From: Gari tellinella
Lineage: Eukaryota; Mollusca; Bivalvia; Cardiida; Psammobiidae
DNA: 64,000 nucleotides
Assembly (NCBI GenBank): GCA_922989275.2
Contig: OV277858.1
Coordinates: 105,200,794-105,264,793 of the forward strand
Reading direction: 5' to 3'
Under the pieces are notes generated by a model that was not told where the DNA came from, did not search any database, and saw only the letters and a list, made by a program, of their open reading frames with translations. Of this stretch, positions 301 through 63,830 are shown piece by piece. A program made the position numbers and the translations under genes. Positions within the stretch are counted from its first letter, which is position 1; each line of letters begins with the position of its first letter.

Positions 301-615
301 TAAATCTTATTATCATATGTTTTATTCATTGCGCAGTTATACAATACGTTATTCTTTCCCGCTTGAACGCAAACGAAACGCAAAGGCAATTCAATAAAAC
401 GTAGAAAAAGTTGTTTTTTACAGTTATAACTACTTATTTTAATCTGAGCGCCAAACAGTTTAGAGCCTGATCAGACGCCGGGTAACCCGGCGTCTGATCA
501 GGCTCTAAACTGTTTGCTCTGGAAAAAATAGTTTTAGCGTAAACGCGTTAATTGGGAAAGAATAACGATTTCTCCACAGTAAATCTTATTTGCATATATT
601 TTATTCATCACACAG
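301..615. repeat. Near-identical direct repeats around a family A MITE
   Basis: A roughly 35-bp stretch beginning TAAATCTTATTATCATATG at 301 recurs in altered form at 580, on either side of the first family A copy. This is much longer than the usual TA duplication. It may be a local duplication unrelated to the insertion. Confidence 0.5.
341..581 (+). mobile_element. Family A MITE, left end degraded
   Basis: The interior matches family A: TTATTCTTTCCC near the left end, the type 1 hairpin at about 455-517 and GGGAAAGAATAACG before a decayed right end (TTTCTCCACAG). The left CAGTGGAG terminus is unrecognisable. Confidence 0.75.
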
Positions 616-990
616 CAGTAGTAAATTGGTCTAGGTGCCCAAGTTTCCAGGTTTGATGTTGTGTGTTAATTAATGCTACTGGCTATGTTTAAAATAGATA
701 CTAGTTTATTTTCTAATCAACACATGTATAGCGAAGCTCGCTTCTGACGAATTTGGATACAGCGAACTATAGGATATAACAAGGCAAATTTTTAATTTCC
801 TATTTCTAACAAACGTGAAGTAAAATGGACCTGATATACATTTAGTCAAAGAGACTACATGTAGTAGACCTAGAAGCGTAAACAAAACTGTCATTTGCTT
901 AGTTAGGTTCTTGCAAATGTATTAGTTATGTTCCTAATACAAGGAATTTTCTGCATTTCTGCTACCACCTGTCTCACGTTTACGGCATAC
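615..990. other. No gene or repeat recognised
   Basis: AT-rich sequence between two MITEs. I see no convincing reading frame, splice pattern or repeat match in it. Confidence 0.5.
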
Positions 991-992
991 AT

Positions 993-1221
993 GAACAGAA
1001 ATACGTCATTCTTTCAAAATAAACACATTTTTCATTTCAAACAGTTTGGAGCCAGATCAGACGCCGGGTAAACCGGCGTCTGATCAGGCTCCAAACTGTT
1101 TGCCATTCAGATTTAAATAAACATGCAGAATTGTCAAAATGCTTTCATTTCCTACATTATACAGTAATGCGTTTGCGTTTCGTTTGCGTTTGAACGGGAA
1201 AGAACACCGTCTTCTTCACTG
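993..1221 (-). mobile_element. Family A MITE, old copy
   Basis: Central type 1 hairpin at about 1040-1102; the right side reads GCGTTTGCGTTTGAACGGG and ends CTTCTTCACTG before TA. The left end is eroded. Confidence 0.75.
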
Positions 1222-1230
1222 TACAATGTA

Positions 1231-1477
1231 CAGTGGAGAAAACGTTATTCTTTCCCAATAAACGCGTTTACGCTAAAACTATCTTCCCCATTGTAAACAG
1301 TTTGGAGCCTGATCAGACGCCGGGTAACCCGGCGTCTGATCAGGCTCCAAACTGTTTACAACTCAGATTAAAATAAAGTGTTAGAAATTTCTAAAAACTG
1401 ACATTTTCTAAATTTTAGTGTTTTGCGTTTGCGTTTCGTTTGCGTTTAAACGGGAAAGAATAACAGATTCTCCATTG
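1231..1477 (-). mobile_element. Family A MITE, full length
   Basis: Both ends are present (CAGTGGAGAAAACGTTATTC and the inverse ending TCTCCATTG), flanked by TA on each side. The type 1 hairpin is at about 1297-1360. It lies 9 bp from the preceding copy. Confidence 0.92.
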
Positions 1478-1619
1478 TAAGAGACAAGTCTCATGTTGAT
1501 TTACTGATATTATTTCACCTGTGACGACTATATTAAGAGAGATAAATGTCTATTCCCCCGCTATCACAACTCTCCTCTCCACATATATGTATACATTTTC
1601 ATTAAGCTGATTGCCTTAA

Positions 1620-1854
1620 ACAGATTTCTCTAGTTAAACGCTATACGAAACGCAAACGCAATGCACGTGAATGTAGAAAATGACAACTTTTTAAAATATC
1701 TCACAAATAAGTTTAATTTGGGTTGCTGACATATTGGAGCCTGATAAGACGACGGGTTACCCGGCGTCTGATATGGCTCCAACTGTTTCCAACATATATA
1801 ACAGTTTAAGTGTAAACGCGTTTAATGGGGGAAAATAAAGACGTCTACACTGTA
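1620..1854 (+). mobile_element. Family A MITE, old copy
   Basis: Degraded copy: hairpin arms at 1733-1790 have lost symmetry, TTTAAGTGTAAACGCGTTTAATGGG marks the right side and TCTACACTG the right end. Confidence 0.65.
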
Positions 1855-1861
1855 TGTATAA

Positions 1862-2443
1862 ACAACGTTCCCTCCCTACAACGACCCTCCAACAACGACT
1901 CCCTCCCAACAACGACCCTTGCCACAATTCCCTAAACAAGACAATTATGTCTAACGCTATTACTGCTGTTATATCTTCTGTTTAAATTTGTCGTCTGCTG
2001 TTTTTCTCAAATTTACGTATTGAACATTTTGACAAAAATAAAACTTAATGACGAGTGACAAAAAGCTTGAATCCAGATCAGACGCCGCGTTACAAATGTG
2101 AACCAATGTCCCTCCATATACATGTAACCACATCCTTCGAACAACGAACACATATTTTGTCTCCCATTGGATGTGGTTGTACAGTGGAGAATCTGTTATT
2201 CTTTCCCGTTTAAACGCAAACGTACACAAACGCAAAGCAATAAAACGTAGAAAAGAACAACTTTTAGACAATTCTGATAATTCATGTTTATCTTGGTGGC
2301 AAACAGTTTGGAGCCTGCTCAGACGCCGGGTTACCCGGCGTCTGATCTGGCTACAAACTGTTTGTATTGTAAATAATAGTTTAAGCGTAAACGCGTTTAT
2401 TGGGAAAGAATAACAGATTCTCCACTGTAGAGAGGGAACTCTG
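1862..2443 (+). mobile_element. Family B MITE interrupted by a family A copy
   Basis: Starts near GTTCCCTCCCTACAACGACC, runs through the family-specific TCGTCTGCTG and CAAAGT-like blocks and ends GAGAGGGAACTCTG. The host motif GTTGTAGAGAGGG is split at its TA by a complete family A copy (2182-2427), leaving TA on both sides. Half of the hairpin is lost near 2085-2100. Confidence 0.85.
2182..2427 (+). mobile_element. Family A MITE, young subfamily, nested in family B
   Basis: Perfect-looking ends CAGTGGAGAATCTGTTATTC and inverse, TA on both sides. The interior carries the AAAGAACAAC marker of what looks like the youngest subgroup. Both strands are open across the element by chance of composition. 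Confidence 0.95.
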
Positions 2444-2675
2444 TATTTTCATTAAGGTGATTGCCCAAATAGATTATCTTGTTGATGCATTGAGCTACAT
2501 CGGTGAATTCTTTTCTGATAAACGTGTTGGTACATGAACTAAACAATTATGTTTATTGAAAACGACTTATCACACAGTCAGATCAGAACCAACGTCACTT
2601 TACATTCCTTTGCCCTGCATTTGTGTTTTAATGAGACAGAATAATGTTTAATTCAAGTAACAATCCAGTTTACTA
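2444..2675. other. No feature recognised
   Basis: Mixed sequence between a family B and a family C copy, without a reading frame or repeat that I can identify. Confidence 0.4.
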
Positions 2676-2940
2676 AACCTTTAACCCCTCCTCCCTCCAG
2701 AAAAAAGAAGGCATTACTCCCTTTGATTTGTTCCTCCTCTGAAGTAAATAGTTCTTCTTTATACGGTCAAGAATATATACCATAAGAAATGACTGTTTAA
2801 TTATCCTAGCTGATGGTACCTTAAAACAGACTGAAAGTTAAAATGTACCTTCAGGCGCATTCTGCTTTACTTCCCACCTGCTTTATACATGTAGGTAACA
2901 TGTCCTCAAAACTAGAGACAGGCTCTGTGTGATGATTTAA
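2676..2940 (-). mobile_element. Family C MITE, degraded
   Basis: Reverse family C order is visible: TTCCTCCTCTGAAG, then TTATACGGTCAAG, a decayed type 2 hairpin at about 2820-2890, then CATGTCCTCAAAACTAGAGACAGGCTCTG. The terminal CCCTTT motifs are eroded. Confidence 0.7.
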
Positions 2941-3208
2941 AGTTGTCCTGCCAAAAGCCTAAGATACGCCACTAACCGAACCTTGTAGAAAAGCTGTATT
3001 AAAACCCTTTTAAAATTATATCATCCTTCTATATGGTAGTTAACCCCTTAACCCTTTCAAACCTAAATTTATCTTGTGGGTATTTATAATTTGTTTTGAC
3101 TCTCCTAGTTCAAGTATTGTGAACCAGTCTACTGTTACATTTTTGGTATGACAACAAAATCCGATGAAACAATTAAATAAAATGCAGACCATGATCAGAG
3201 GGCTCCTA

Positions 3209-3454
3209 CAGTGGAGAAAACGTTATTCTTTCCCAATAAACGCGTTTACGCTAAAACTATTATTTCTATTGCAAACAGTTTGGTGCCAGATCAGACGCCG
3301 GGTAACCCGGCGTCTAATCAGGCTCCGAACTGTTTGCCACCAAAATAAACATGAATTATCAGAATTGTCCAAAAGTTGCACTTTTCTACGTTTTAATGTT
3401 TTGCGTTTGCGTTTCGTTTCGTTTAAACGGGAAAGAATAACGTTTTCACCACTG
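3209..3454 (-). mobile_element. Family A MITE, full length
   Basis: Ends CAGTGGAGAAAACGTTATTC and inverse ending TTCACCACTG, TA flanks. The hairpin at about 3276-3340 is slightly asymmetric (GTCTAATCAGG in the right arm). Belongs to the AAAAGTTGCAC subgroup. Confidence 0.93.
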
Positions 3455-3499
3455 TATAGGGCTGAAGGGATGAAATGGTCAACTACCTTAGCCCGGGTG

Positions 3500-3665
3500 C
3501 AATGGTTATTTGCAAACAGTTTGGATGGTGATCAGAGGCCGCGTAACACGGCGTCTGATCAGGATCCAAACTGTTTGACAAGCATTGATTCAAAATAGTT
3601 AAAGTTTTAATTTGAGAAATGAAAGCAGAAGACACTTGGTGACGTCATGGCAGTGAAGGGAGTTA
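3500..3665. mobile_element. Solo type 1 hairpin in an unassigned TTAA-type repeat
   Basis: A 70-bp hairpin at 3508-3577 (GATCAGAGGCCGCG against CGGCGTCTGATC) is followed by sequence ending GTGAAGGGAGTTAA, like the right end of a family D element. Left end not found. Confidence 0.5.
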
Positions 3666-3860
3666 ATGGAGTATTAAGTGTGCAGTCGTAGGAATCGAGT
3701 CGAATACATAACGTTTTTTCCTGCCTATGATGGTCACAGATCAATATTATCTGCGCAATTACTACTAGCAAATATATGTCTATTAATGGCATGAAGCATT
3801 TGAACTACTGACTGAGCTGCGATTAGCTGATCCAGTCACGTCAAACTATTGGCTCAATGA

Positions 3861-4181
3861 TGGTTCTCTACAACGGCCCTTCCAACAACGACCCCTCCTT
3901 ACAACGACCCTTGTTGCCGCAGTTCCCTAAACAAGACAATTTTATGTCGAATACTTTCACTACTGCAATATCGTCAGTTTAAAACTGTCGTCTGCTGTTT
4001 TCCCAAAGTCACATATTTGGCATTTTGACAGAAAAAACATAATGACAAGTGACAAACAGATTTGATCTTGATTTAAGCTGTTTGCAAATGTAAGCCAGTT
4101 TCCCTCCCTATCACGACACCCTCCGAACAACGCACACACGTTTTGTCTCCCATTGGGTGTCGTTGTAGAGAGGGGGCGCTG
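3861..4181 (+). mobile_element. Family B MITE, hairpin centre lost
   Basis: Left end TCTCTACAACGGCCC, interior ATCGTCAG..TCGTCTGCTG, right end GTTGTAGAGAGGGGGCGCTG before TA. The core between CAAACAGATTTGATCTTG and CAAATGTAAGCC has collapsed, so no hairpin remains. Confidence 0.8.
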
Positions 4182-6024: not shown

Positions 6025-6144
6025 TTTAAGAGAAAACAAGAGCGGATCAAGAGTCTCAGAGAATCAGAGAAGGAGGCGATCGGAAAGGAGTGTGAAGTGG
6101 AGATATTTGTTAGTGTGACAAAAGTAGTGACGTCATGCAATTAA
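6025..6144 (+). other. Possible exon, charged helix, unrecognised
   Basis: After TTTGTGCAG at 6014-6022 a frame opens as FKRKQERIKSLRESEKEAIG and continues to a stop inside the TTAA at 6141-6144. It is strongly charged, as in a coiled coil. The stop comes from the MITE boundary, so if this was an exon its end has been replaced. Function unknown. Confidence 0.3.
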
Positions 6145-6352
6145 CACTTTCACTCTCGATGACGTCATAAAGCGCATTTGCAAACAGTTTATGATCCTCG
6201 TTACGCTGATCAGGATCAAAACTGTTTTCCACTCAGATTAATTTAAATGGTCAAAATTATAAACGAGTTGTCATTTCCTACGTTTTAGTGCAATGCGTTT
6301 GTGTGTTCGGACGCTCCTAACGGGAAACAATACCGTCTTATCCAATATATTG
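6141..6352. mobile_element. Chimeric MITE: family D left half, family A right half
   Basis: Opens as an inverted family D end (TTAACACTTTCACTCTCGATGACG, GCGCATTTGCAAACAGTTT). It passes through the hairpin at about 6183-6230, then continues with the family A half (CACTCAGATTAA, TTTTAGTGCAATGCG, ACGGGAAACAATA). The switch lies in the shared core. Confidence 0.75.
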
Positions 6353-12065: not shown

Positions 12066-12283
12066 CAGTGGAAAAACGTTATTCTTTCCCGTTTAATCGC
12101 AAACAAAACGCAAACGCACATCACTAAAATGTAGAAAATGTCTAAAAATATATTTTAATCTGAGCTGGAAACTGTTTGGAGCCTGATCAGACGCCGGGTT
12201 ATCTGGCTCCAAACTGTTCGCATAGGAAATTATAATTTTATCGTAAACGCGTTTATTGGGAAAGAATAGCGTTTTCTCCACTG
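12066..12283 (+). mobile_element. Family A MITE, half of hairpin lost
   Basis: CAGTGGAAAAACGTTATTC to TTTTCTCCACTG with TA flanks. The core reads GATCAGACGCCGGGTTATCTGGCTCC, so the right arm's inner part is deleted. Confidence 0.88.
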
Positions 12284-14100: not shown

Positions 14101-14561
14101 AGTGGAGAAAAGGTTATTATTTCCCGTTTAACCCTTTACCTGATAGCATTGTTTCTAGTATTGAAGATATGTGACTATTTAAAGCAGGTTGAAAGTAAAG
14201 CAGAATGCGCCCTAAGGCGCATTCTGCTTTACTTTCAGCCTGCTTTAAGCTATTAACTGCTCGAATAAGGAAAGTATTAAATATGACACATATTCATTAC
14301 AGTATAATTTGGAACTATTTTCTTCAGCGGATGAATAAAATGAATGTGCTAAAAGTCGCTTCTATAAGGGCAAGGGTTAAACGCAAACGAAACGCATACG
14401 CATTGCATTATAATGGGTAAAATGACAACTTTTTGACAAATTTGACGACTCATTTTAATTCTAGTGGCACCGGCGTCTGATCTGGCTCCAAACTGTTGCA
14501 ATGGAAATAATAGATTTAGCGTTAACGCGTTTATTGGGAAAGAATAACGTTTTCTCCACTG
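14101..14561 (+). mobile_element. Family A MITE interrupted by a family C copy
   Basis: CAGTGGAGAAAAGGTTATT to TTTTCTCCACTG. The usual CCCGTTTAAACGC block is split at TTAA by a complete family C element, giving TTAA at 14129-14132 and 14377-14380. The left hairpin arm is lost (only GGCGTCTGATCTGGCTCCAAAC remains). Confidence 0.92.
14133..14376 (+). mobile_element. Family C MITE, full length, reference copy
   Basis: Begins CCCTTTACCTGATAGC and ends ATAAGGGCAAGGG between two TTAA copies created in a known target. The type 2 hairpin spans about 14178-14253. TTAA duplication and CCC ends are those of piggyBac-type elements, so mobilisation by a piggyBac-like transposase is inferred. Confidence 0.95.
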
Positions 14562-16890: not shown

Positions 16891-16900
16891 GGCTGCTTAA

Positions 16901-17140
16901 CCCTTTCATGATCAAATTCATCGGGAGAAGTTTACCCCTTCACCGCTTTATTGTCGTCTGATTTAGTATTGTTGTCTGCAAGACACGTTTCAAAGTTAGA
17001 CTTAAGGTTGTATGACTTATTAAATATCGATAAGGGTGTCAAATAGTGTGGGTCCTGATCAGACGCCGAGTTACGCGGCGTCTGATCAGGACCCAAACTG
17101 TTTTCAAACGTCCTTTATGGCGTCATTGAAAGTGAAAGGG
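16901..17140 (+). mobile_element. Family D MITE, full length, reference copy
   Basis: TTAA at 16897-16900 and 17141-17144. Begins CCCTTTCATGATC and ends GAAAGTGAAAGGG. The core at about 17040-17106 is type 1 with the stem GACGCCGAG/GCGGCGTC and flanking GGTCCTGATC/GATCAGGACC. TTAA and CCC ends are piggyBac-like. Confidence 0.93.
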
Positions 17141-17177
17141 TTAAACATGGTGAACACAAAAGGCAGGTACAGTACTG

Positions 17178-20399: not shown

Positions 20400-20515
20400 A
20401 TCACTATTGGCGTCAAACAGTTTGGATCCTGATCAGACGCCGCGTTACGCGGCGTCTGATCAGGATACAAACTGTTTGTAAATATTACCGCAAGCAGGGT
20501 AAGGCAGTGGAGGGG
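20400..20515. mobile_element. TTAA-type repeat with type 1 hairpin, left end not found
   Basis: Stem GGATCCTGATCAGACGCCGCG and inverse at about 20415-20480; right end GGCAGTGGAGGGG before TTAA (20516-20519). Resembles the CCCCTT family at 11240. Confidence 0.65.
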
Positions 20516-25489: not shown

Positions 25490-25570
25490 TTTATGTAATT
25501 TCATGTGAAGCGCTTTTAAACGCACAACTCTTGTGTGAAAAGAGCGCTATATAAATCGGGTATAATAATA
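25490..25570 (+). repeat. Retroposon-like 3' tail
   Basis: GTGAAGCGCTTTTAAACGC, then AAAAGAGCGCTATATAAATC and an ATAATAATA run. Tails of the form GCGCTATATAAAT plus short A/T repeats are common at SINE/LINE 3' ends in many animals. Body not identified. Confidence 0.55.
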
Positions 25571-25806
25571 CAGTAGATAATCTGTTATTCTTCCCCGTTT
25601 AAACGCAAACGAAACGCAATCGCAAATCACTAAAATGTAGAAAATGTCAGTTTTTAGAAATTTCTAACACTTTATTTTAATCTGAGTTGTAAACAGTTTG
25701 GAGCCTGATCAGACGCGGCGTCTGATCTGGCTCCAAACTGTTTACAATGGAAAAAATAGTTTTAGCGTAAACGCGTTTACTGGGAAATAAAACGTCTTCT
25801 CCACTG
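25571..25806 (+). mobile_element. Family A MITE, hairpin tip deleted
   Basis: CAGTAGATAATCTGTTATTC to ACGTCTTCTCCACTG, TA flanks. The core loses its loop: GATCAGACGCGGCGTCTGATC. Inserted in the ATAATAATA end of a retroposon-like tail. Confidence 0.92.
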
Positions 25807-25814
25807 TATGTTGT

Positions 25815-27470: not shown

Positions 27471-27700
27471 CAGTGGAGAATGTGTTATTCTTTCCCAGTA
27501 AACGCGTTTACGCTAAAACTATTATTTACAATACAAACAGTTTGGAGCCAAATCCGGCGTCTGATCAGGCTCCAAACTGTTTGCCACCAAGATAAGATGA
27601 ATTATCAGAATTATCAAAAAGTTGTACTTTTCTATGTTTTAGTGTTTTGCGTTGGCGTACGTTTGCGTTTAAACGGGAAAGAATAACAGATTCTCCACTG
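27471..27700 (-). mobile_element. Family A MITE with partly deleted core
   Basis: CAGTGGAGAATGTGTTATTC to AGATTCTCCACTG. The left stem is shortened (GGAGCCAAATCCGGCGTCTG). Otherwise a young-subgroup copy. Confidence 0.93.
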
Positions 27701-29948: not shown

Positions 29949-30113
29949 TAATGTATAATTCAAGATTATACAGTATGCAGGCTTGGTCGATAAACCAGTC
30001 GAATTCTTATCCGGAGAGAATTGCGTATGCTGCAGGTCGAAGGGTTGCCTTTGTTTGGTTGTAGTTTCGTTAAATATCAAATGTGTTTGTTTTATTATAC
30101 TGATGAACCTTAA

Positions 30114-30356
30114 CCCTTTGAACCCTAGTCCCGCATATAGGCGTCATTTTCAAACAGTGTACATGTGAATAGTACACTTGTCCTGTGCAAACATTGAATA
30201 CCCAGATCAGAGGGCTCCGAAAGGAGCCCTCTGATCAGGGTCTTCACTGTTTGTCATAATGCCAAACATTGACAAAAACAACCCTTAAAAGTCAGAAATG
30301 GACTAGACTAAAATGGTAACTAGAATTGTCCATTTAAAGTTTCAGGGAGGAAAGAG
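30114..30356. mobile_element. TTAA-type MITE (family J) with a rebuilt type 1 core
   Basis: CCCTTTGAACCCTAGTCCC after TTAA (30110-30113) and GGGAGGAAAGAG before TTAA (30357-30360). The core (30200-30240) keeps CAGATCAGAGGGC in one arm and its exact inverse in the other, so the inner stem differs from the GACGCCG form but is still paired. Confidence 0.82.
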
Positions 30357-30374
30357 TTAATTAAACGAGGTTTA

Positions 30375-30567: not shown

Positions 30568-30632
30568 TAAAATCTTTGGATAATGACCTGTCCCAGAGTT
30601 TCCTAAATCGATTGTTGCTGGATACATTTTGT

Positions 30633-30675
30633 AACTCTTTCAGCGTCAATCATAATCGTCTGTTTAACCCTTTCA
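30633..30675. repeat. Target duplication of the LINE insertion, left copy
   Basis: Forty-three bases (starting AACTCTTTCAGCGTC, ending ACCCTTTCA) that recur at 31315-31357 with one base difference. The last part is TTAA plus the first bases of the family D element at 31350, so the LINE entered an existing family D copy. Confidence 0.92.
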
Positions 30676-31158
30676 ATGAATAATGTTTATATAGACAACA
30701 GAATAAAAGAGCTTAAATTTAAACTTATCCATAAAATAGTTGCAACTAATGAAAACCTTTTTACTTGGAAACTAATCCAAACGCCATTCTGCAAGCATTG
30801 TAATGAAATTGAAACACTCGAACATTTTTTCATCTCTTGTCCTTATTTAAATATATTTTGGATCAAGATACATAATCTACTTTCAAAAATAGGCATAAAT
30901 AAAAAGATTAGCATGTATGAACTCATAGTCGGATACAAAATACATTATAAAGCCTACCAAGAAGTAAATATCATCATAGGAAACATTATGTACTCCATCT
31001 ACAAAAGTTACATGAAAAGTGAAAGAAGAACAAATAAAGTGAATACGATAAACATTCTTTACTTTGATTTATTAACATTAGAAAAATATTACTTTAAGAA
31101 GAAATTGAAATACCCAATAATACAAAAGTTTAACAAAGCATTGAAAAATCAGATTTAA
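30676..31158 (+). pseudogene. C-terminal part of LINE ORF2 (reverse transcriptase polyprotein)
   Basis: An open frame of 160 codons. The apparent start codon is simply where the truncated insertion begins. Near residue 35-55 it shows FTWKLIQTPFCKHC followed by NEIETLEHFFISC, a C-x2-C-x7-H-x4-C cluster typical of the tail of L1/Tx1-type ORF2 proteins, downstream of the reverse transcriptase domain. Residues after it are rich in lysine, isoleucine and tyrosine. Endonuclease and reverse transcriptase domains are absent, so it cannot move itself. The frame is undamaged, so the insertion is probably recent. Family-level assignment within the L1/Tx1 group is tentative. Confidence 0.85.
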
Positions 31159-31357: not shown

Positions 31358-31949
31358 TGATCGAATTACAGCGCTCCCTCCCACCAACGGCCCTCCCAAC
31401 AACGACTCCCTCCTTACAACAACCCTTCCCGCTGTTCACTAAACATGATAATTATGTCTAACGCCTAACTTCTGCACTATCGTCTGCTTAAAATTGTCTT
31501 CTGCTAATTTTCGCAATATAACATAATCGACTATATGACAGAAAAAAATCTTATGAGGAGTAACAAACCGCTTGAATCCAGATCAGACGCCGCGTTACGC
31601 GGCGTCTGATCTAGATTCAAACTGTTTGCAAATGTAAGTCAATTTCCCTATCTATAACGACTCCCTCCCAACAACGAACATATTTGTTGTCTCCCATTGG
31701 GTGTCGTTGTAGAGAGGGAGCGCTGTATACGGGAGATTTGTACCCCTTCACCGCTTTATTGTCGTCTGCTTCAGTATTATTGTCTGCTAGACACGTTTCA
31801 ATGATAGATTTAAGGTTGTATGACCAAAACAAATATCGATACGAGTGTCAAATAGTTTGAGTCATGATCAAACGCCGTGTTACGCGGGGTCTGACCAGGG
31901 TCCAAACTGTTTGCAAACGCGTTTTCAAACGTCATTGAGACTGAAAGGG
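31350..31949 (+). mobile_element. Family D MITE interrupted by a family B copy
   Basis: CCCTTTCATGATCGAAT at the left, then the family B insertion (31369-31725), then GGGAGATTTGTACCCC, TTATTGTCGTCTGC, GACACGTTTCAATG, core at about 31847-31912 and GACTGAAAGGG before TTAA (31950-31953). Confidence 0.9.
31369..31725 (+). mobile_element. Family B MITE, full length, reference copy
   Basis: CAGCGCTCCCTCCCACCAACG to GTTGTAGAGAGGGAGCGCTG with TA on both sides (31367-31368 and 31726-31727). Intact core at about 31564-31629 with outer arms CTTGAATCCAGATC/GATCTAGATTCAA. CAGT-like ends and TA target point to Tc1/mariner-type mobilisation. Confidence 0.94.
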
Positions 31950-32172: not shown

Positions 32173-32734
32173 AAAGTGCTCCCTCCCTACAACGGCTTTA
32201 CATGTACAATGTACGAGCAACGATTCCTTCCTTACAACAATTTTTCTGCTGTTTCTCAAACAATAAATTTACAGTGGAGAAAACGTTATTCTTTCCCAAT
32301 AAACGCGTTTACGTTAAAACTATTATTTGCAGTACAAACAGTTTGGAGCCAGATCAGGCTCCAAACTGTTTGCCATAAAAACAAACATGAATTGACAGAA
32401 TTGTCCAAAAGTTGTACTTTTCTACGTTTTAATGCTTTGCGTTTGCGTTTCGTTTGCGTTTAAACGGGAAAGAATAACGTTTTCTCCACTGTATGCTTCT
32501 AATTGTCTTCTGCTGTTTTTTCTTAAAGTTCCGTACATGTATTGGATATTTTGACAGAAGAAAAACATAACGACGAGTGACAAACAGGTTTATCCAAGAT
32601 GAGACGCCGCGTGACGCGGCGTCTCATCTAGGTTCAAACTGTTTGCAAATGTGTTCAAAGGATATTAACTTATCCCCGAAAAACACACACAATCGCTGTC
32701 TCCTATTGGATATTGTTGTAGAGAGGGAGCACTG
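32173..32734 (+). mobile_element. Family B MITE interrupted by a family A copy
   Basis: AAGTGCTCCCTCCCTACAACG to GTTGTAGAGAGGGAGCACTG. Split at a TA in AACAATAAATTTA by family A 32272-32491. The core at about 32581-32645 has the stem GATGAGACGCCGCG and its inverse. Confidence 0.9.
32272..32491 (-). mobile_element. Family A MITE with collapsed core, nested in family B
   Basis: CAGTGGAGAAAACGTTATTC and inverse, TA flanks. The core has lost the GACGCC stem: CAAACAGTTTGGAGCCAGATCAGGCTCCAAACTG. Confidence 0.94.
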
Positions 32735-32990: not shown

Positions 32991-33455
32991 CCCTTTACTC
33001 AATGGCCTGTTTCCAGTTTTGAAGAAAATTGACCACTTACATGTAAAGCAGGTTCAAAGATGCGCCTTTCAGCCTGCTTTGAGCTATTACAGTGGAGAAT
33101 ATGTTATTCTTTCCCGTTTAAACGCAAACGTACGCAAACGCAAAGCAATAAAACGTAGAAAAGAACAACTTTTAGACAATTCTGATAATTCATGTTTATC
33201 TTGGTGGCAAACAGTTTGGAGCCTGATCAGACGCCGGGTTACCCGGCGTCTGATCTGGCTCCAAACTGTTTGTATTGTAAATAATAGTTTTAGCGTAAAC
33301 GCGTTTATTGGGAAAGAATAACAGATTCTCCACTGTATCTGCTGGGATTCTATATTTATTATGTTACATTTTCATGACTGTGAACATTGGAAGTACTTTT
33401 TTCAGTGGAGGAATATATTAAATGCGTTAAAAGGCGCTTCTATGGTGAAAAGGGG
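32991..33455 (+). mobile_element. Family C MITE interrupted by a family A copy
   Basis: CCCTTTACTCAATGGCC after TTAA (32987-32990) to TCTATGGTGAAAAGGGG before TTAA (33456-33459). The family A copy 33090-33335 sits at a TA just after the hairpin. The hairpin itself is reduced (AAAGCAGGTTCAAAG, TTTCAGCCTGCTTTGAG). Confidence 0.9.
33090..33335 (+). mobile_element. Family A MITE, young subfamily, nested in family C
   Basis: CAGTGGAGAATATGTTATTC to AGATTCTCCACTG, TA flanks, intact core at about 33207-33271. Confidence 0.96.
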
Positions 33456-39229: not shown

Positions 39230-39772
39230 TACAATGCGTGTATTCTCTCGGAGGGTTTTGTTATAGGGGGGAGTTTAAACCCTTAAAGTACATTTGCAAA
39301 CGGTTTGAATGCAGATCAGACGCTACGTATTGCGGCGTCTGATTTGGGTTTTAAACTGTTTGTCACTCGTCCAAGTGTTTATTCTGTCAAAATGTCCAAT
39401 ACGTAACTTTGAGATAAAAGGCAAACGACAATTTTAAGCGGACAATATTGCAGCACTGAAAGCGTTTGACATAATCATCTTGTTAACCCTTTAACCCATA
39501 GCCTGTTTCTAGTAGTTAATATATGTGACCTATTAAAACAGGCTGAAAGTAAAGCAGAATGTGCCCTAGGGCACATTCTGCTTTACTTTCAGCCTACTTT
39601 AAGTTACTATCTGCTAGTATATAGAAACTATTTCTTATAGTACATATTCATGACAGTATAAAATGGAACAATTTTCTTTGGCGGAGGAATAAAATGAATG
39701 CGCTAAAAGTCGCTTCTATAAGGGAAAGGGTTAAGGGAATTGTTAGGAGGGCCGTTGTAGGGAGGGACACTG
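39230..39772 (-). mobile_element. Family B MITE, inverted, with a family C insertion
   Basis: CTCTCGGAGGGTTTTGTTAT, core at about 39296-39362, GTCAAAATGTCCAATACG, GCGGACAATATTGCAGC, then family C between two TTAA copies, then GTTAGGAGGGCCGTTGTAGG and GGAGGGACACTG. Confidence 0.9.
39487..39730 (+). mobile_element. Family C MITE, full length, nested in family B
   Basis: CCCTTTAACCCATAGCC to CTTCTATAAGGGAAAGGG, TTAA on both sides (39483-39486 and 39731-39734). Type 2 hairpin at about 39536-39602 with the centre GAATGTGCCCTAGGGCACATTC, changed in both arms relative to GCGCC. Confidence 0.95.
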
Positions 39773-43746: not shown

Positions 43747-43980
43747 CAGTGGAGAATATGTTATTCTTTCCCAATAAACGCGTTTCCGCTAAACTATTAT
43801 TCCCATTGCAAACAGTTTGGAGCCAGATCAGACGTCTGATCAGGCTTCAAACTGTTTGCCACCAAGATAAACAAGAATTATCAGAATTGTCCAAAAGACG
43901 TTCTTTTCTATAGACGTTTTAGTGCTTTGCGTTTGCGTACGTTTGCGTTTAAACGCTAAAGAATAACATATTCTCCACTG
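43747..43980 (-). mobile_element. Family A MITE with short core
   Basis: CAGTGGAGAATATGTTATTC to ATATTCTCCACTG, placed at TACATGTACATGTA. The core is reduced to GATCAGACGTCTGATC. Confidence 0.93.
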
Positions 43981-50262: not shown

Positions 50263-50559
50263 TGTAACAGCCAATTCTTTCCCCCCTGCTAAAAGTTTCC
50301 CCGGGGAAAGAATTGGCTAGCCAAAACCTTCCCCGGGGAAAGAATTGGCTAGCCAATTCTTTCCCCCCCTAGTCAAAAGTTTCCCCGGGGAAAGAATTGG
50401 CTAGCCAATTCTTTCCCCCCTAAAAACTCATAATTGAGAATACTTTTAGCTAGCCAATTCTTTCCCCCCTAATTGAAACTGACCCCCCTTTCTCGGAGGG
50501 GGGAAAGTTTTGGCTAGCCAATTCTTTCCCCCCCTCGCTATATTTTCGCAATTCAGTGG

Positions 50560-51290
50560 GGGGGAAAGTTTTGGCTAGCCAATTCTTTCCCCCCTATCTG
50601 ACAGTGTGCAGATTGTATGCTTTGACTATCTTGGAGGGGGGAAAGTTTTGGCTAGCCAATTCTTTCCCCCCTGTCTGACCGTGTGCAGATTGTATGCTTT
50701 GACTATCTCGGAGGGGGGAAAGTTTTGGCTAGCCAATTCTTTCCCCCTTATCTGACAGTGTGCAGATTGTATGCTTTGAATATCTCGGAGGGGGGAAAGT
50801 TTTGGCTAGCCAATTCTTTCCCCCCTATCTGTCAGTCTGCGGAATTGCATCCTTTCATTATCTTGGAGGGGGGAAAGTTTTGGCTAGCCAATTCTTCCCC
50901 CCCTCCCATATCTTACAGTCTGTAGAATTGTATTCCCCCCTATCTTACAGTGTGCAGATTGTATGCTTTGACTATCTCGGAGGGGGGAAAGTTTTGGCTA
51001 GCCAATTCTTTCCCCCCTATCTGACAGTGTGCAGATTGTATGCTTTGACTATCTCGGAGCCAATTCTTTCCCCCCTATCTGTCAGTCTGTGGAATTGTAT
51101 ACTTTGACTATCTCGGTGGGGGGAAAGTTTTGGCTAACCAATTCTTTCCCCCCTCTCTTTCAGTCTGTGGAATTGTATACTTTGACTATCTTGGAGGGGG
51201 GAAAGTTTTGGCTAGCCAATTCTTTCCCCCCTATCTGACAGTGTGCAGATTGTATGCTTTGACTATCTTGGAGGGGGGAAAGTTTTGGAT
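50560..51290 (+). repeat. 76-78-bp tandem array, left arm
   Basis: About nine units with spacers of the types GTGTGCAGATTGTATGCTTTG and GTCTGCGGAATTGCATCC. One unit is shortened (51056-51060, TCGGAGCCAATTC). Many are 77 bp, so reading frames shift between units. Confidence 0.9.
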
Positions 51291-52345
51291 AGTCAAATGA
51301 TGCAATTCCACAGACTGTCAGATAGGGGGGAAAGAATTGGCTAGCCAAAACTTTCCCCCCTCCAAGATAGTCAAATGTTGCAATTCTGCAGACTGGCAGA
51401 TAGGTGGGAAAGAATTGGCTAGCCAAAACTTTCCCCCCTCCGAGATATTCAAAGCATACAATTTCGCACACTGTCAGATAGGGGGGAAAGAATTGGCTAG
51501 CCAAAACTTTCCCCCCTCCAAGATAGTCAAAGTATACAATTCCACAGACTGAAAGAGAGGGGGGAAAGAATTGGTTAGCCAAAACTTTCCCCCCTCCAAG
51601 ATAGTCAAATGATGCAATTCCGCAGACTGACAGATAGGGGGGAAAGAATTGGCTAGCCAAAACTTTCCCCCCACCGAGATAGTCAAAGTATACAATTCCA
51701 CAGACTGACAGATAGGGGGGAAAGAATTGGCTAGCCAAAACTTTCCCCCCACCAACATAGTCAAAGTATACAATTCCACAGACTGTCAGATAGGGGGGAA
51801 AGAATTGGCTAGCCAAAACTTTACCCCCTCCAAGATAGTCAAAGTATACAATTCCACAGACTGAAAGAGAGGGGCGAAAGAATTGGCTAGCCAAAACTTT
51901 CCCCCCTCCAAGATAGTCAAATGATGCAATTCCGCAGACTGACAGATAGGGGGGAAAGAATTGGCTAGCCAAAACTTTCCCCCCACAGAGATAGTCAAAG
52001 TATACAATTCCACAGACTGTCAGATAGGGGGGAAAGAATTGGCTAGCCAAAACTTTCCCCCCTCCAAGATAGTCAAAGTATACAATTCCACAGACGGAAT
52101 GAGAGGGGGGAAAGAATTGGCTAGCCAAACATTTCCCCCCTCCAAGATAGTCAAATGATGCAATTCAGCAGACTGACAGATAGGGGGGGAAAGAATTGGC
52201 TAGCCAAAACTTTCCCCCCTCCGAGATAGTCAAAGCATATAATTTCGCACACTGTCAGAAAGGGGGGAAAGAATTGGCTAGCCAAAACTTTCCCCCCTCC
52301 AAGATAGTCAAACCATACAATTCCGCCAGATAGTGAGAAAGAAAT
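51291..52345 (-). repeat. 78-bp tandem array, right arm
   Basis: About thirteen units in inverted orientation. Most are exactly 78 bp (26 codons), so a minus-strand frame of 322 codons (51160-52128) stays open, repeating GGGKVLASQFFPP and VCGIVYFDYL. Other frames are open as well, so I do not call a gene. Confidence 0.9.
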
Positions 52346-52624
52346 CCTACAGTGCGAAATTATAGGGGGGGAAAGAATTGGCTAGCCAATTCTTTCCCCG
52401 GGGAAAGTTTCAACTAAGGGGGGGAAAGAATTGGCTAGCTAAAAGTATCCCACTTTTGAAATTATAGGGGGGGAAGTTTTTGACTAGGGGGGGAAAGAAT
52501 TGGCTAGCCAATTCTTTCCCCGGGGGAAGAAATTGGCTAGCCAATTCTTTCCCCGGGGAAGGTTTTGGCTAGCCAATTCTTTCCCCGGGGAAACTTTTGA
52601 GGGGGGAAAGAATTGACTGCTACA

Positions 52625-57232: not shown

Positions 57233-57234
57233 GT

Positions 57235-58230: not shown

Positions 58231-58289
58231 TCGATTTAAAAAAACAAACAAAAACAGACAATAAATAACAAACAAACAAAAAACATAAA

Positions 58290-59617: not shown

Positions 59618-59971
59618 TCACCTGGCTGTCTTGCTTATTGCCGATATCATCGTTCGTATGTACTTTCCAGCTGTCGGCCTACTTAGGTTTTCAGAATCCA
59701 CCATCGGCATCTGAATTGCCACTGTCGCCAGATATCTCAGCCCAAACAAAAGTGTCAATACTGGTGGGAGTGGCATATTCCTTAGGGTCGCCAACTCTAG
59801 CTGGCCCAAAATGATGTACACGGTTGCCGGATGTAGCCTGAATCTTTAAAAAATATCAGCCTCATCCAGCTCTTCAAGTGGGTTGGTCCTGTCTTTGAAA
59901 AGCCACGGTATTCTCCGAATAATCGTCTCTCTTTCAGCCCTTCGCAAATTACAGGTGCGTGCAGCGGCCAT
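59618..59971 (-). pseudogene. N-terminal part of a PIF/Harbinger transposase, one in-frame stop
   Basis: Reading from the ATG at 59971 the frame gives 41 residues including IPWLFKDRTNPLEELDEAD, meets a TAA at 59846-59848 (one base from a lysine codon), and continues in the same frame as RFRLHPATVYIILGQLEL, LPPVLTLLFGLRYLATVAIQ and SRPTAGKYIRTMISAI to a TGA. The R-D-R-x-N-P-L motif, the R-[YF]-R-x-x-x-x-[TA]-V block, the A/G-L-R-[FY]-[LY]-A-T-G-like block and the S-x-x-T-x-x-x-x-x segment follow one another as in Harbinger (HARBI1-like) transposases. The DDE catalytic part that should follow is absent: the 4.7-kb element begins about 310 bp further on. Non-functional. Confidence 0.82.
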
Positions 59972-59999
59972 TTTATGGAGCGAAAGTTCATGCACTGAG

Positions 60000-60187
60000 C
60001 ATGGAACTCACACGTTGAGTCTGTCCAACACCATACTCAAGCGAGAATGAGTTTCGTTCTCACTTGAGCACAATCTCATACTCAGATTTCTTTATAAGCA
60101 CCGATTTCTGAGTCGTGCTCAGCGTTGAGCACAAAACTCACCCGTGAGCATGAGATCGTACTCAGGAAATGTTTATAAGCACGGGCC
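60000..60187 (-). repeat. Right terminal inverted repeat and subterminal repeats of the Harbinger element
   Basis: The terminal 43 bp are the inverse of 45346-45388. Inside are several TGAGTNNTGCTCA-like words (GAGCACAATCTCATACTC, GAGTCGTGCTCAGCG) and a second TTTATAAGCACCG. Confidence 0.8.
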
Positions 60188-60190
60188 CAG

Positions 60191-60288
60191 GTAGGCAACT
60201 CGCAATTGATGGCCAACGACGGCCGTCGATTTCTTTTCTAAACTCTTGACTGTTGCTGATTTGCTGTCATTGAATACATTGAGGAGGA
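60191..60288. other. Spacer between Harbinger element and MITE cluster
   Basis: About 100 bp of unassigned sequence. With 45333-45342 it should form the pre-insertion site. Confidence 0.4.
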
Positions 60289-60290
60289 TA

Positions 60291-60536
60291 CAGTGGAGAA
60301 TCTGTTATTCTTTCCCGTTTAAACGCAAACGTACGCAAACGCAAAGCAATAAAACGTAGAAAAGAACAACTTTTAGACAATTCTGATAATTCATGTTTAT
60401 CTTGGTGGCAAACAGTTTGGAGCCTGATCAGACGCCGGGTTACCCGGCGTCTGATCTGGCTCCAAACTGTTTGTACTGTAAATAATAGTTTTAGCGTAAA
60501 CGCGTTTATTGGGAAAGAATAACAGATTCTCCACTG
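60291..60536 (+). mobile_element. Family A MITE, young subfamily
   Basis: CAGTGGAGAATCTGTTATTC and inverse, TA flanks, intact core at about 60409-60472. Confidence 0.96.
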
Positions 60537-60540
60537 TAGG

Positions 60541-60640
60541 CTGAAATAATTGTTTCCATTGCAAAATGTTTTGAGCAAGATCAAACGCCGCTGTAACGGC
60601 GAAAAATGCCCCCCATTTCCATTGTTATCTGTTTGCTTTG
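60541..60640 (-). mobile_element. Family A fragment
   Basis: AATAATTGTTTCCATTGC, AAAATGTTTTGAGCAAGATC and GCCGCTGTAACGGCG: a left half with altered stem. Confidence 0.55.
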
Positions 60641-60642
60641 TA

Positions 60643-60821
60643 TCAGAAGAGAAAACTTTATTCTTTACCAATAATCACATTGAAGCTGAAAACCCGGCGT
60701 CTGATCAGACTCCAAACTGTTTGCCATGCAGATTAGAATATACAGTCAGAATTGTCAACATTTTTATTGCGTTTGCGTTGCTTCTGCGTTTAAACGGGAA
60801 AGAATAACGTCTTCTCCAATG
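60643..60821 (-). mobile_element. Family A MITE, left stem lost
   Basis: CAGAAGAGAAAACTTTATTC to ACGTCTTCTCCAATG. The core keeps only CCCGGCGTCTGATCAGACTCC. Confidence 0.82.
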
Positions 60822-60881
60822 TAATTTTACGCGGTTCACTTCGTGCAGTTACCATTCCTACGCCAAATTTGTCTCGTTTAA

Positions 60882-61079
60882 CCCTTTCCATGCTTTCGCA
60901 GTCAAAATATTCATCTGCAAATATTGTTTGTCTTCAAGTGTACGCATAATTCATTTCATAAACGTTCTTTTAATAACATGTACTACATGTATTGGTACAA
61001 GCGCCAAACAGTTTGGGCCCTGATCAGGTCCCAAACTGTTTGCTTAAGTGGCTTTTTGTTGTCTATGGCAGTAAAAGCG
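60882..61079. mobile_element. TTAA-type MITE (family I) with a short core
   Basis: CCCTTTCCATGCTTTCGC after TTAA (60878-60881) to GGCAGTAAAAGCG before TTAA (61080-61083). The core is GGGCCCTGATCAGGTCCC between CAAACAGTTT and AAACTGTTTG. Shares its right TTAA with the next element. Confidence 0.8.
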
Positions 61080-61083
61080 TTAA

Positions 61084-61325
61084 CCCTTTCACTCTCAATG
61101 ACGATTAAAAGCGCGTTTGCAAACAATTTGGATCCTGATCAGACGCCGCGTAACGCGGCGTCTGTTCAGGATCAAAATTGTTTGACACTAGTTGTATAAT
61201 TTCTTCAGTCATACTGGTTTATTTTGTTTAACTTCGAAACGACATTGTAGACAACAAAATTGAAGCAGACGACAATGAAACGGTGAAGGGGTAAACATCT
61301 CACGAAAACTTTTGCAGTGAAAGTG
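61084..61325 (-). mobile_element. Family D MITE, full length
   Basis: CCCTTTCACTCTCAATGACG to GCAGTGAAAGTG with TTAA outside (61080-61083 and 61326-61329). Core at about 61120-61185 (GACGCCGCG/CGCGGCGTC). Interior GTAGACAACAAAATTGAAGC is the inverse of the reference copy. Confidence 0.92.
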
Positions 61326-61378
61326 TTAAATAGCTGGATGAGACGACAAGCTTCCTGGTAAATCTAAATGCGGGTCTA

Positions 61379-61624
61379 CAGTGGAGAATCTGTTATTCTT
61401 TCCCGTTTAAACGCAAACGTACGCAAACGCAAAGCAATAAAACGTAGAAAAGAACAACTTTTAGACAATTCTGATAATTCATGTTTATCTTGGTGACAAA
61501 CAGTTTGGAGCCTGATCAGACGCCGGGTTACCCGGCGTCTGATCTGGCTCCAAAATGTTTGTATTGTAAATAATAGTTTTAGCGTAAACGCGTTTATTGG
61601 GAAAGAATAACAGATTCTCCACTG
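61379..61624 (+). mobile_element. Family A MITE, young subfamily
   Basis: CAGTGGAGAATCTGTTATTC and inverse, TA flanks, core at about 61497-61560. Confidence 0.96.
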
Positions 61625-61629
61625 TAACT

Positions 61630-62085
61630 CTCAGTACAGACATCAGTGTTTAGCGCTCATTAAGAGATGTGCGGGCATGTTTTAAAACTAACACCAGCTT
61701 CATATGCAGAACATATTTAATACTGATAGCTCATCCACGACCTTTCTATACATGTATCTATGTTGTCCTGTATTAAGCGACAATGTGTCTTTGGGTATAC
61801 ATGTATCTGTGTTGTTCTATTAAATGGTTGTTTACTGCGCGACTTTACGGATAATGCAGTCCTTGAAAGCTTGTGATAGAAATGGATCATTTTAAAGGAC
61901 AAACAAGACGATTTTAGATGAGACAATAAGCTCAATGAGACAGGTCGTATTAAGATAGATAGCAGCTAGAGGCACATAAGTGGTGTAAGATTTGTCACTA
62001 GAAGTGTTCCTACTATAATTGAATCACGGGCTGTGAATTTTAAACCATCGAAGAATTTACGGATATTTTATGACATACAATTGAA
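61630..62085. other. No feature recognised
   Basis: AT-rich spacer with ACATGTAT words and no credible frame. Confidence 0.4.
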
Positions 62086-62089
62086 TTAT

Positions 62090-62345
62090 CCGGAGCCCGT
62101 TTTACTAAACTACTTTCTCAAAAACTTTGCGTAAGTCAAAATCGTTAAATACTTTTATTTTTCGATCATAAACGTTGGCAAACAGCAAATAGCCAGATCA
62201 GAGGACGCGTTAAAAGCGCGTCCTCTGATCTGGCTATTTGCTGTTTGTACATGTAGCAAGTGATAATAAAAAACATAAATTAAAATTTAAAAATTTGACT
62301 TACGCAACATTTTTGCGTAAGTAGTTTAGTAAAACAGGCCCCTGG
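62090..62345. mobile_element. Harbinger-like MITE with an exact 31-bp hairpin
   Basis: CCGGAGCCCGTTTTACTAAAC and the inverse of AGTTTAGTAAAACAGGCCCC, then AAACTTTGCGTAAGTC against GACTTACGCAACATTT, give ends of about 48 bp. The centre (62179-62247) is an exact hairpin: CAAACAGCAAATAGCCAGAT, CAGAGGACGCG and its inverse around TTAAAAG. The outer CAAACAG and GCCAGATCAGA recall type 1. Target duplication not resolved. Confidence 0.82.
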
Positions 62346-62349
62346 TGAT

Positions 62350-62800
62350 TCTGACGTTATATATGCCAAATTACCGTGAAATAGAATCAATATTGTTATA
62401 CTCTCTAAGAAGCCGAATATTTAAGAATCTGTTTCCAAAACCCATTTACCTCTAGAATGTTTAATTGATTATTTTATAGTTTCAAGGTCTACACTGTTTG
62501 TCATTTTGTAATAAATGCCAGAAAACAACTCTAAATAGTCACAAATAAACTTAATTTGAAACAACAAAATAAAAAGAGCACGCAGTGTTATAAAATTTTG
62601 AAAATCACTGTGGTAGAATCCTAGGTACTCGGCCTTGATCTGGCTCAAAACTGTGTGCAGTACAAAACTACTTTAGATATTTTCCAATGTATTGTCTATT
62701 GAAAGCATTTTTGCCAATAGCATTGCGTTTTCTTTTAATTTTGTTTCGACGGAAAAAAACAACATCAACTTGGAGAAAAATATTGTTTGTGTTTTTCATT
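62350..62800. other. Mostly unrecognised, weak family A trace
   Basis: GTACTCGGCCTTGATCTGGC, TCAAAACTGTGTGCAG at 62622-62660 is a remnant core. No gene seen. Confidence 0.4.
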
Positions 62801-62804
62801 TGCA

Positions 62805-62878
62805 TTTGCAAACAGTTTGCATCCAGATCAGACGACAATTTAAGCAGTCGATATTGCAGCAGCGAAAACGGCTAGGCA
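62805..62878 (-). mobile_element. Family B fragment
   Basis: TTGCAAACAGTTTGCATCCAG, ATCAGACGACAATTTAAGCAG, CGATATTGCAGCAGCG follow the inverted family B order and stop at the next family A copy. Confidence 0.7.
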
Positions 62879-62880
62879 TA

Positions 62881-63126
62881 CAGTGGAGAATCTGTTATTC
62901 TTTCCCAATAAACGCCTTTACGCTAAAACTATTATTTACAATACAAACAGTTTGGAGCCAGATCAGACGCCGGGTAACCCGGCGTCTGATCAGGCTCCAA
63001 ACTGTTTGCCACCAAGATAAACATGAATTATCAGAGTTGTCTAAAAGTTGTTCTTTTCTACGTTTTATTGCTTTGCGTTTGCGTACGTTTGCGTTTAAAC
63101 GGGAAAGAATAACAGATTCTCCACTG
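62881..63126 (-). mobile_element. Family A MITE, young subfamily
   Basis: CAGTGGAGAATCTGTTATTC and inverse, TA flanks, intact core at about 62945-63008. Confidence 0.96.
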
Positions 63127-63257
63127 TATTTACACATTCTCGAAAATAAATGATAAACCGAGATACTTTGTATCTGAATTGAATCCAAAAAGTTTGTCAC
63201 ACAAGATTATTTTTCACACAAAACAAAACTGCGGACCAACATTTCAAACTAAAGAAA

Positions 63258-63372
63258 CTGTTTGCAAATGTACTCTAAGATTATTGGTTTTCCCTCCTTA
63301 TAACAACTCCCCCCAAACAACACACACAGTCTTTGTCTCCCACTGGGTTTTGTTGTAGAGAGGGAGCACTCT
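63258..63372 (+). mobile_element. Family B right-end fragment
   Basis: CTGTTTGCAAATGTACTC, CCCTCCTTATAACAACTCCC, GTTTTGTTGTAGAGAGGGAGCACT. Confidence 0.8.
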
Positions 63373-63416
63373 AACGGTTTAATTACTACAGAAAAGGAGT
63401 AAATAATTTAATATTA

Positions 63417-63686
63417 CTGTGGAGAAGACGTTATTCTTTCCCAAACAAGCATACTAAAATCGTACATTTTACCTGGAAAAATTTCATGTGTGCGTATCAA
63501 ATATTTTTTTGAAAAGTTGAAATACTTTTTCCATTGCAACTGTTTGGAGCCAAACTGTTTGCCAATCGGATTAACATGACTAGTACATGTATGAATTGTC
63601 GAAAAATTGTAACTTTCTGTATTTTATTGCACTTCGTTTTCGTTTCGTTTGCGTTTACACGGAAAAGAAAAACGTCTTTTTCACTG
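63417..63686 (-). mobile_element. Family A MITE, collapsed core
   Basis: CTGTGGAGAAGACGTTATTC to ACGTCTTTTTCACTG. The core is CAACTGTTTGGAGCCAAACTG, and about 30 bp of unrelated bases replace part of the left half. Confidence 0.82.
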
Positions 63687-63688
63687 TA

Positions 63689-63830
63689 AATTGAACCCTT
63701 GAAAACTTTTCGACAATTTTGACTAGTCATATTAATCTGGATGGAAAACAGTTTGGAGCCTGGCTCCAAACTGTATGCAATGACAATAATTGTTTTAGCG
63801 TAAACGTTAAAGAATAACGTCTTCTCCGAT
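63689..63830 (+). mobile_element. Family A MITE, left end lost, collapsed core
   Basis: CCTTGAAAACTTTTCGACAATT, core AAACAGTTTGGAGCCTGGCTCCAAACTG, AGAATAACGTCTTCTCCGATG. Confidence 0.78.

Follow-up and report, generated by a model that had tools for sequence, protein, structure and literature searches.

The window analysed here is the whole stretch of 64,000 nt (positions 105200794-105264793 of its contig) from the genome of the bivalve Gari tellinella, which comprises 1.598 Gb in 80 contigs. Family hits are spread over contigs C1 to C19, in line with the 19 chromosomes of venerid clams (PMC8905726). Within this window, miniature inverted-repeat transposable elements (MITEs) with TA target sites, with TTAA target sites and with Harbinger-like ends carry one kind of internal hairpin. 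This type-1 core is a 65-bp palindrome, CAAACAGTTTGGAGCCTGATCAGACGCCGGGTTACCCGGCGTCTGATCTGGCTCCAAACTGTTTG and its variants, in which CAAACAG and GATCAGA are followed by their inverse. The hairpin was probably captured on rare occasions, by nesting or recombination at the founding of a family, and was then inherited vertically; we give this reading a probability of about 0.6. MITEs reach huge copy numbers without enzymes of their own, and only some of them succeed. A hairpin found in MITEs of different transposase classes, with a stem that compensatory changes keep paired and with no occurrence inside the few piggyBac elements whose ends could be paired, would make its effect on transposition or copying testable, and composite MITEs are visible in this genome in intermediate states: nested, internally truncated and chimeric.

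Occurrence, copy number and fold of the core

When both strands are counted, so that a palindrome scores twice, the window contains 233 matches to CAAACAGTTTG at no more than one mismatch (2.9 expected) and 117 to GATCAGA (5.5 expected); none of 100 shuffles reached either count. A 65-bp core profile, trained on data from the same window and genome sample, gave 98 window matches at a cut-off of E<=1e-3, of which 70 are near full length. Family A accounts for 51 of these 70, F2 for seven, F3 for three, F4 for two and F1 for one, and the Harbinger-like copy is one of the six that stand outside any family. The genome sample (20 stretches of 10 kb, or 200 kb, taken at round-number coordinates on the eight largest contigs) holds 94 matches at the same cut-off, 67 of them near full length, which scales to about 535,000 near-full copies genome-wide. 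The exact pattern CAAACAGTTTG-N6-GATCAGA occurs 170,514 times in forward and 170,699 times in reverse orientation across the genome (a perfect palindrome being counted on both strands); the same word read backwards has no genome-wide occurrence. Family A is crowded in the window, mainly at 1-45500: its near-full cores number 51 in the 64-kb window and 10 in the 200-kb sample, which suggests local insertion or nesting of A into A.

Folded as single-stranded DNA, all five cores tried, drawn from five families, form a single hairpin with 30-32 base pairs, with folding energies between -37 and -41 kcal/mol and z between -14 and -17. The initial annotation had described a single core layout in TA, TTAA and Harbinger-like elements, and both the profile matches and the folds bear this out. 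The likeness also goes beyond short shared words, as the annotation had supposed: the core consensuses of A and F3 are identical at 60 of 65 positions, loop included. The hairpins of F1 and of the Harbinger-like element share with the main type mainly CAAACAG, GATCAGA and the layout. No repeated target bases were seen at the hairpin edges, and common bases persist beyond them, GAGTG recurring on the left and CA on the right. The core pattern was found neither in viral contigs nor in prokaryote genomes, a protein search with a spurious open reading frame that bears the hairpin gave no match, no Rfam family reached its gathering score in the window, and a tRNA scan of the window returned no genes.

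MITE families that carry the hairpin

A set of 154 near-full cores was grouped by both flanks, 60 bp each, with thresholds set by the analyst. The resulting families are A (62 cores), F1 (14), F2 (14), F3 (13), F4 (5), F5 (4) and F6 (3), together with three pairs and 33 singletons; loci L007 and L008 overlap, so that these sizes include one F2 copy and one F3 copy twice over. Single-linkage clustering of 120-bp flanks was dropped, as most ends fell into one group, presumably via nested neighbours. Targets are TA in A and F2 and TTAA in F1 and F3-F6, and there is one Harbinger-like element. Family B of the initial annotation is probably F2, judging from its TA target and CAGT end. Elements located in the window are:

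33208..33272, + strand: intact 65-bp hairpin core of family A
25569..25808, + strand: complete A element (TA, CAGT ends); left arm 25569-25689, hairpin 25691-25743 with 12 bp lost at the tip, right arm 25745-25808
32270..32493, - strand: complete A element; hairpin reduced to 38 bp by loss of its tip
31367..31727, + strand: F2 element (TA; ends TACAGCGCTCCCTC..GAGGGAGCGCTGTA) with a TTAA-type left arm and hairpin 31564-31628
16897..17144, + strand: F3 element (TTAA-CCCTTTC..GAAAGGG-TTAA), hairpin 17040-17103
30110..30360, - strand: F1 (TTAA) element; its hairpin, 30188-30253, is of the subtype that has an AGACCC arm
20414..20478, + strand: hairpin of an F4 (TTAA) element
61120..61184, - strand: hairpin of an F3 (TTAA) element
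62092..62342, + strand: Harbinger-like element, ends GGAGCCCGTTTTACTAAACTACTT / AAGTAGTTTAGTAAAACAGGCCCC, 69-bp hairpin 62179-62247
6139..6347, - strand: A/F3 chimera; A left arm 6229-6347, hairpin 6181-6227, F3 right arm 6139-6180
12169-12218, 27534-27583, 32335-32372, 43809-43858 and 63745-63777: tip-shortened hairpins

The shortened hairpin at 32335-32372 lies between direct copies of TGATC, and tip shortening may reflect slippage at a folded palindrome.

The A consensus is 251 bp long, with a TA target, CAGT inverted ends CAGTGGAGAATATGTTATTCTTTCCC (26-bp ends derived from 56 copies) and arms of 121 bp to the left and 65 bp to the right of the hairpin. F2 elements are about 360 bp long and have a TA target and CAGT-type ends CAGTGCTCCCTC; the left end was located in 7 of 14 copies and the right end in 8. 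A TA target with CAGT inverted ends marks a Tc1/mariner/pogo-type element, and this assignment is clear for A and weaker for F2. The TTAA families F1 and F3-F6 are about 205-250 bp long (F1 about 251 bp; F5 arms about 109/40 bp) and end in CCCTTT, CTCTTT or CCCTTAG. TTAA on both sides and CCC..-type inverted termini, the marks of a piggyBac-type element, are present in the F3 and F5 consensuses and in the elements at 16897-17144 and 30110-30360. The F5 terminus CCCTTAGCCCGCCA is close to the ends CCCTTAGACCGCCACT / CCCATAGCCCGCCACC of piggyBac element L038; the F3 terminus has just CCCTTTC in common with piggyBac elements L031, L033, L034 and L037. Around the transposase of eight DDE_1 (pogo/Tigger) loci, extracted from 150 scored matches, the ends of A or F2 were not found, and an A MITE adjoins the transposase in L039/L040. 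The Harbinger-like element exists as one copy only, with 24-bp inverted ends and flanks tcc / tgg that form no clear 3-bp duplication. Harbinger elements have GGGCCTGTTT..-type inverted ends and a short target-site duplication, and the tentative superfamily label given here comes from the end sequence.

Some F3 copies (e.g., 16897-17144) contain a second, inner terminus-like sequence, TTTACCCCTTCACCGC or similar, about 35 bp inside the left end; of the two, judged by eye, the inner sequence is the closer match to the right end. The outer ends of F3 were possibly added step by step at an earlier time. In the F1 right arm (e.g., 30110-30360), CTGTTTG occurs again about 30 bp past the hairpin and is followed by the right arm of the TTAA clan.

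Flanks shared between families

Flanks were compared with the hairpin as anchor, and z was computed from 60 shuffles. On the left, z is 9.7 for F2-F3, 17.5 for F2-F4 and 17.9 for F3-F4; F5 and F6 reach 3.8-8.5 against F2-F4 and 9.8 against each other. The left z of A against F2-F6 is only 0.7-3.5, that of F1 is at most 1.3, and that of the Harbinger-like copy is at most 1.3 save for 5.3 against the two-member F9. On the right, z among the TTAA families is as high as 10.6 (0.9 for F5-F6). Right-hand z of A against F2-F6 is 2.0-5.5 where raw scores are low, at 3-6, a similarity that may represent a few extra shared bases or chance.

A profile of the TTAA left arm, built from those 11 of the 25 F3-F6 members in which a terminus was found, matches the left flank of 13 of the 14 F2 copies below an E of 0.001, the best at 7e-11, and aligns over about 100 bp to the left of the hairpin. 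The match begins at consensus TAACnnTTTcACtGC, which resembles the TTAA terminus TTAACCCTTTCACTG; in our reading of individual F2 copies, this inner TAACnnTTTcACtGC would be a former TTAA terminus. Since the left-arm profile matches F2 and the corresponding right-arm profile has no F2 match at E<=1, the TA-type F2 contains the left portion of a TTAA MITE and has lost its right portion. In F1 the left-arm profile gives nothing below 0.048, and the right-arm profile matches at 6e-5 with a displacement of about 38 bp.

The initial annotation had described the outer ends and interiors of the carriers as unrelated. This is broadly the case for A, the Harbinger-like copy and the F1 left arm. Judged by these alignments, it is false for most of the set: F3-F6 share flanks, the F2 left arm belongs with them, and so, displaced, does the F1 right arm. 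Families with different targets, which had been expected not to align in their flanks, do align in the case of F2 and F3/F4 and do not in the case of A.

Core tree and exchange between families

A tree of 65 columns and few resolved forks was built from 102 of the 154 near-full cores, leaving out the 39 cores that stand in pairs or alone; of the remaining 115, those from L002 and L008 and those with lengths outside 58-67 were also excluded. Families A (support 95), F1 (99), F2 (73), F5 (95) and F6 (67) each require one change on this tree, with strong support for A, F1 and F5, and the total is 10 label changes against 43.6 when labels are shuffled. The comparison of core and flank groupings that the initial annotation had proposed is concordant for these five families; the cores of F3 and F4 are mixed with one another.

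Both arms could be labelled for 130 cores, and three of these are discordant: one has an F3 left arm and an F2 right arm, and in two the left and right arms were both typed as one kind of A arm, with a weak second match. The chimera at 6139-6347, absent from this table, joins an A left arm (65.4 bits; its inner 74 bp, E 3.7e-17) to an F3 right arm (E 9.9e-10), and L024 near 5050 joins an A left arm to the right half of an F1-like hairpin. An exact A flank next to a TTAA-type stem occurs once genome-wide; an A flank next to an A stem was counted 13 times in 264 kb, of which 10 lie in the window and three in the 200-kb sample. Because the tree tracks the families, only 3 of 130 cores are discordant and the mixed junction is found once genome-wide, core exchange after the founding of a family is rare.

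Stem pairing and maintenance of the hairpin

Of the 77 cores that measure exactly 65 bp, 35 were hand-picked to span the families, and paired changes in the stem were counted in these; most A copies, near-duplicates and the odd cores L022:2596, window 16684 and window 19261 were omitted. Changes on both sides are present in 15 of 31 pairs. Double-change cells number 71, against 22.7+-3.3 in shuffled data, and paired cells make up 91.2%, against 84.7% when shuffled and at most 38% when the arms are slid. The table of all 77 cores (40 A and 37 others) points the same way. The 37 cores outside A show little variation at positions 1-7 and 18-24 except at 21 (C or G), and in them positions 8, 12, 14, 17 and 30 vary in pairs. 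Most of the 40 A cores have a T-T mismatch at 17/49. Within A there are 90 single-arm and six both-arm changes, as expected of decaying copies, and the paired changes therefore belong mostly to the lineages that founded the families. RNA-level selection was also considered from the balance of G.T and A.C mismatches in the 77 cores (79 and 48). The excess of G.T may hint at pairing at the RNA level or may come from the way copies were oriented; as the orientation is set by the profile, the comparison was not used.

Among the 61 A elements with both arms, the hairpin is shortened or disrupted in 11 and missing without trace in none, the two scored as lacking it being degenerate. It would appear that the hairpin aids the multiplication of the element. 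A more specific possibility, which we advance tentatively and consider rather doubtful, is that the CAAACAG and GATCAGA boxes in a stem of 31 positions form a portable cis-acting amplification signal that raises the copying of whichever MITE carries it. If so, MITEs of at least three transposase classes would have become, with this signal, among the commonest hairpins of the genome, and the second hairpin type of about 72 bp described below would be a diverged or parallel version of it.

Origin of the shared hairpin

As far as sequence comparison can establish it, the cores of A and F2-F5 are homologous, and the hairpin may be regarded as a single module whose main home would be the clan of TTAA-target (piggyBac-type) MITEs. 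Most members of this clan also have in common a left arm that carries GTCGTCTGC repeats, a GAGTG that precedes the hairpin, and a right arm that is short. Entry into other MITE lineages would have been rare and confined to the founding of families. In F2, a TTAA MITE would have come to lie inside a TA-type element and lost its right end, after which the transposase of the outer element multiplied the composite; F2 is directly accounted for by nesting once the inner ends are lost. Family A and the Harbinger-like element, for which we infer both direction and route, could descend from a similar but older event or from recombination at the hairpin, with little beyond the hairpin remaining. Thereafter each family would have inherited its own core, and selection for a paired hairpin during amplification, acting on a cis-acting DNA or RNA structure, would have maintained it.

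Nested states are found in the sampled loci. The pogo-like transposon of L041 has inverted ends matching at 19 of 20 positions, at 308 and 3102, and between them lies a hairpin MITE with a GCAGACGAC box (left-arm profile E 2.8e-5). In L039, L040 and L046, one TTAA-type MITE with a degenerate hairpin occupies the same site of a DDE_1-bearing repeated unit (99% identical), for which paired ends were looked for and not found. Ten piggyBac loci were examined and paired TTAA ends located in five (L031, L033, L034, L037, L038); none of these five has a core between its ends. In L029/L030 a TTAA MITE whose hairpin is degenerate lies near a piggyBac transposase frame, and core matches occur near such frames in L035 and L036; no paired ends were found in these loci.

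Several observations weigh against capture at founding from the TTAA clan. For the route into A, the TTAA left-arm profile, searched in its own orientation, matches none of 62 A left flanks at E<=1, and the right-arm profile likewise has no match in A at E<=1. The donor direction is inferred from one family, F2, in which TA stands at both ends of just 2 of 14 copies. On the core tree F3 needs seven changes and F4 five, their cores being intermixed, and the groupings of F2 and F6 are weakly supported. L039 and L040 are alike beyond the repeated unit too and may be one longer duplication, and in L046 the nested MITE has an altered TTAA terminus on its left. L024, whose right arm is weakly typed, is possibly a second A chimera, and the hairpins of L029/L030, L035 and L036 possibly lie inside piggyBac elements. 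Selection on the stem is inseparable from arm-to-arm conversion within a palindrome, which could mimic part of the covariation.

The initial annotation had argued that common descent of whole elements does not explain the shared core. That argument is supported for A, where the cores are homologous and the arms unmatched, and is weakened for F2, whose left flanks align with those of F3 and F4. Descent of A as an old TTAA-clan member turned TA-type, its ends replaced and its interior diverged past recognition, is unlikely. A and F3-F6 do agree in layout, from a long arm through GAGTG, hairpin and CA to a short arm, and total lengths are similar (251 bp in A, about 251 bp in F1), and the right-edge z of A is 4.6-5.5 against F5, 3.4-4.1 against F6 and 2.4-3.9 against F2. 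However, neither arm of A is matched by the TTAA profiles, its left z is low, and a switch of target site demands new ends regardless. Convergence, in which similar hairpins were selected independently, would accord with the differently sequenced hairpin of about 72 bp in other TTAA MITEs, which hints that a hairpin as such may be favoured, and it retains some plausibility for the F1 and Harbinger-like hairpins with their short shared words. The near identity of the A and F3 cores, extending to the loop, makes it highly improbable for the set as a whole.

Two further explanations had been offered in the initial annotation. Continual exchange of cores among families, by recombination, gene conversion or template switching, would leave chimeras joined at the hairpin, of which there is one clear A/F3 case and a possible second in L024; yet the core tree follows the flank families, with a single change for each of five, and discordant arms and mixed junctions are few, so that exchange as a frequent process is very unlikely. 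A hairpin that is itself mobile and inserts into elements would suit a sharp, almost symmetric unit occurring in at least three types of ends. This is the least probable of the readings, given that target bases are not repeated at the edges, shared bases run past them, cores group by family and no paired A element is devoid of the hairpin. Rare capture at founding followed by vertical inheritance is the reading that we prefer to all of these.

Comparison with known systems

MITEs of the piggyBac and Tc1/mariner (Stowaway-like) groups have TTAA or TA targets and CCC.. or CAGT.. ends. The elements described here resemble them in size (about 200-360 bp) and in having no noticed coding capacity, and differ in possessing a homologous internal hairpin across both groups. 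The fold-back model of MITE amplification assumes that a strong hairpin matters for copying; in that model the whole element folds by its ends, whereas here a separate internal hairpin is kept.

Short interspersed elements (SINEs) offer a closer analogy. The relevant passages of PMC6887750 treat the highly conserved domains of SINEs (CORE, V, Deu and others) and list module exchange among the explanations. As described there, these domains, like the hairpin, are short conserved centres between differing heads and tails, an analogy to which the unmatched A arms correspond. SINEs are retroposons, whereas the carriers here are cut-and-paste-looking MITEs (TA, TTAA and Harbinger-like) and the core is a long-stem hairpin; the carriers have DNA-transposon termini, apparently in place of the RNA-derived pol III head and LINE-related tail of SINEs. 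The same passages present mammalian MER6 as a Tc1/mariner MITE that took in a V-domain SINE by insertion and then spread it. As in the model for F2, a MITE there acquired a conserved domain from an inserted mobile element; in MER6 a SINE entered one MITE, whereas here the hairpin of TTAA MITEs is found in several families and at far higher copy number. In the part of a bivalve repeat study that deals with them (PMC10294476), MITEs are "not further classified". No title or abstract was found on a hairpin or core common to TA and TTAA MITEs, in a literature search that mostly excludes subscription papers, and a full-text search for the core words gave no match. With MER6 as precedent, the composite MITE would be known in kind, and the sharing of a hairpin across TA and TTAA MITEs appears to be new.

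Second hairpin type and other features of the window

Other TTAA MITEs contain a second type of hairpin, about 72 bp long (CTTAAAGCAGGTTGAAAGTAAAGCAGAATGCGCC-TTAA-inverse; variant tip CAGAAAGCTCC). Examples are:

14128-14380 (window)
39483-39734 (window)
L021:1593-1842

Among 106 sample hairpins scoring at least 20, 38 are of type 1, 53 of the second type and 15 of other kinds. Homology of the second type with F1 was considered and is not shown by the scores (mean 7.7, maximum 8.5, against a null of 5.6+-0.77).

At 50300-52600 the window holds an array of repeats, some direct and some inverted, arranged around the palindromic unit GGGGAAAGAATTGGCTAGCCAATTCTTTCCCC, and this array includes an open frame of 334 aa composed of repeated peptides. 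A frame at 30607-31158 contains a zf-RVT domain (E 1.1e-7) and is likely a remnant of a non-LTR retrotransposon.

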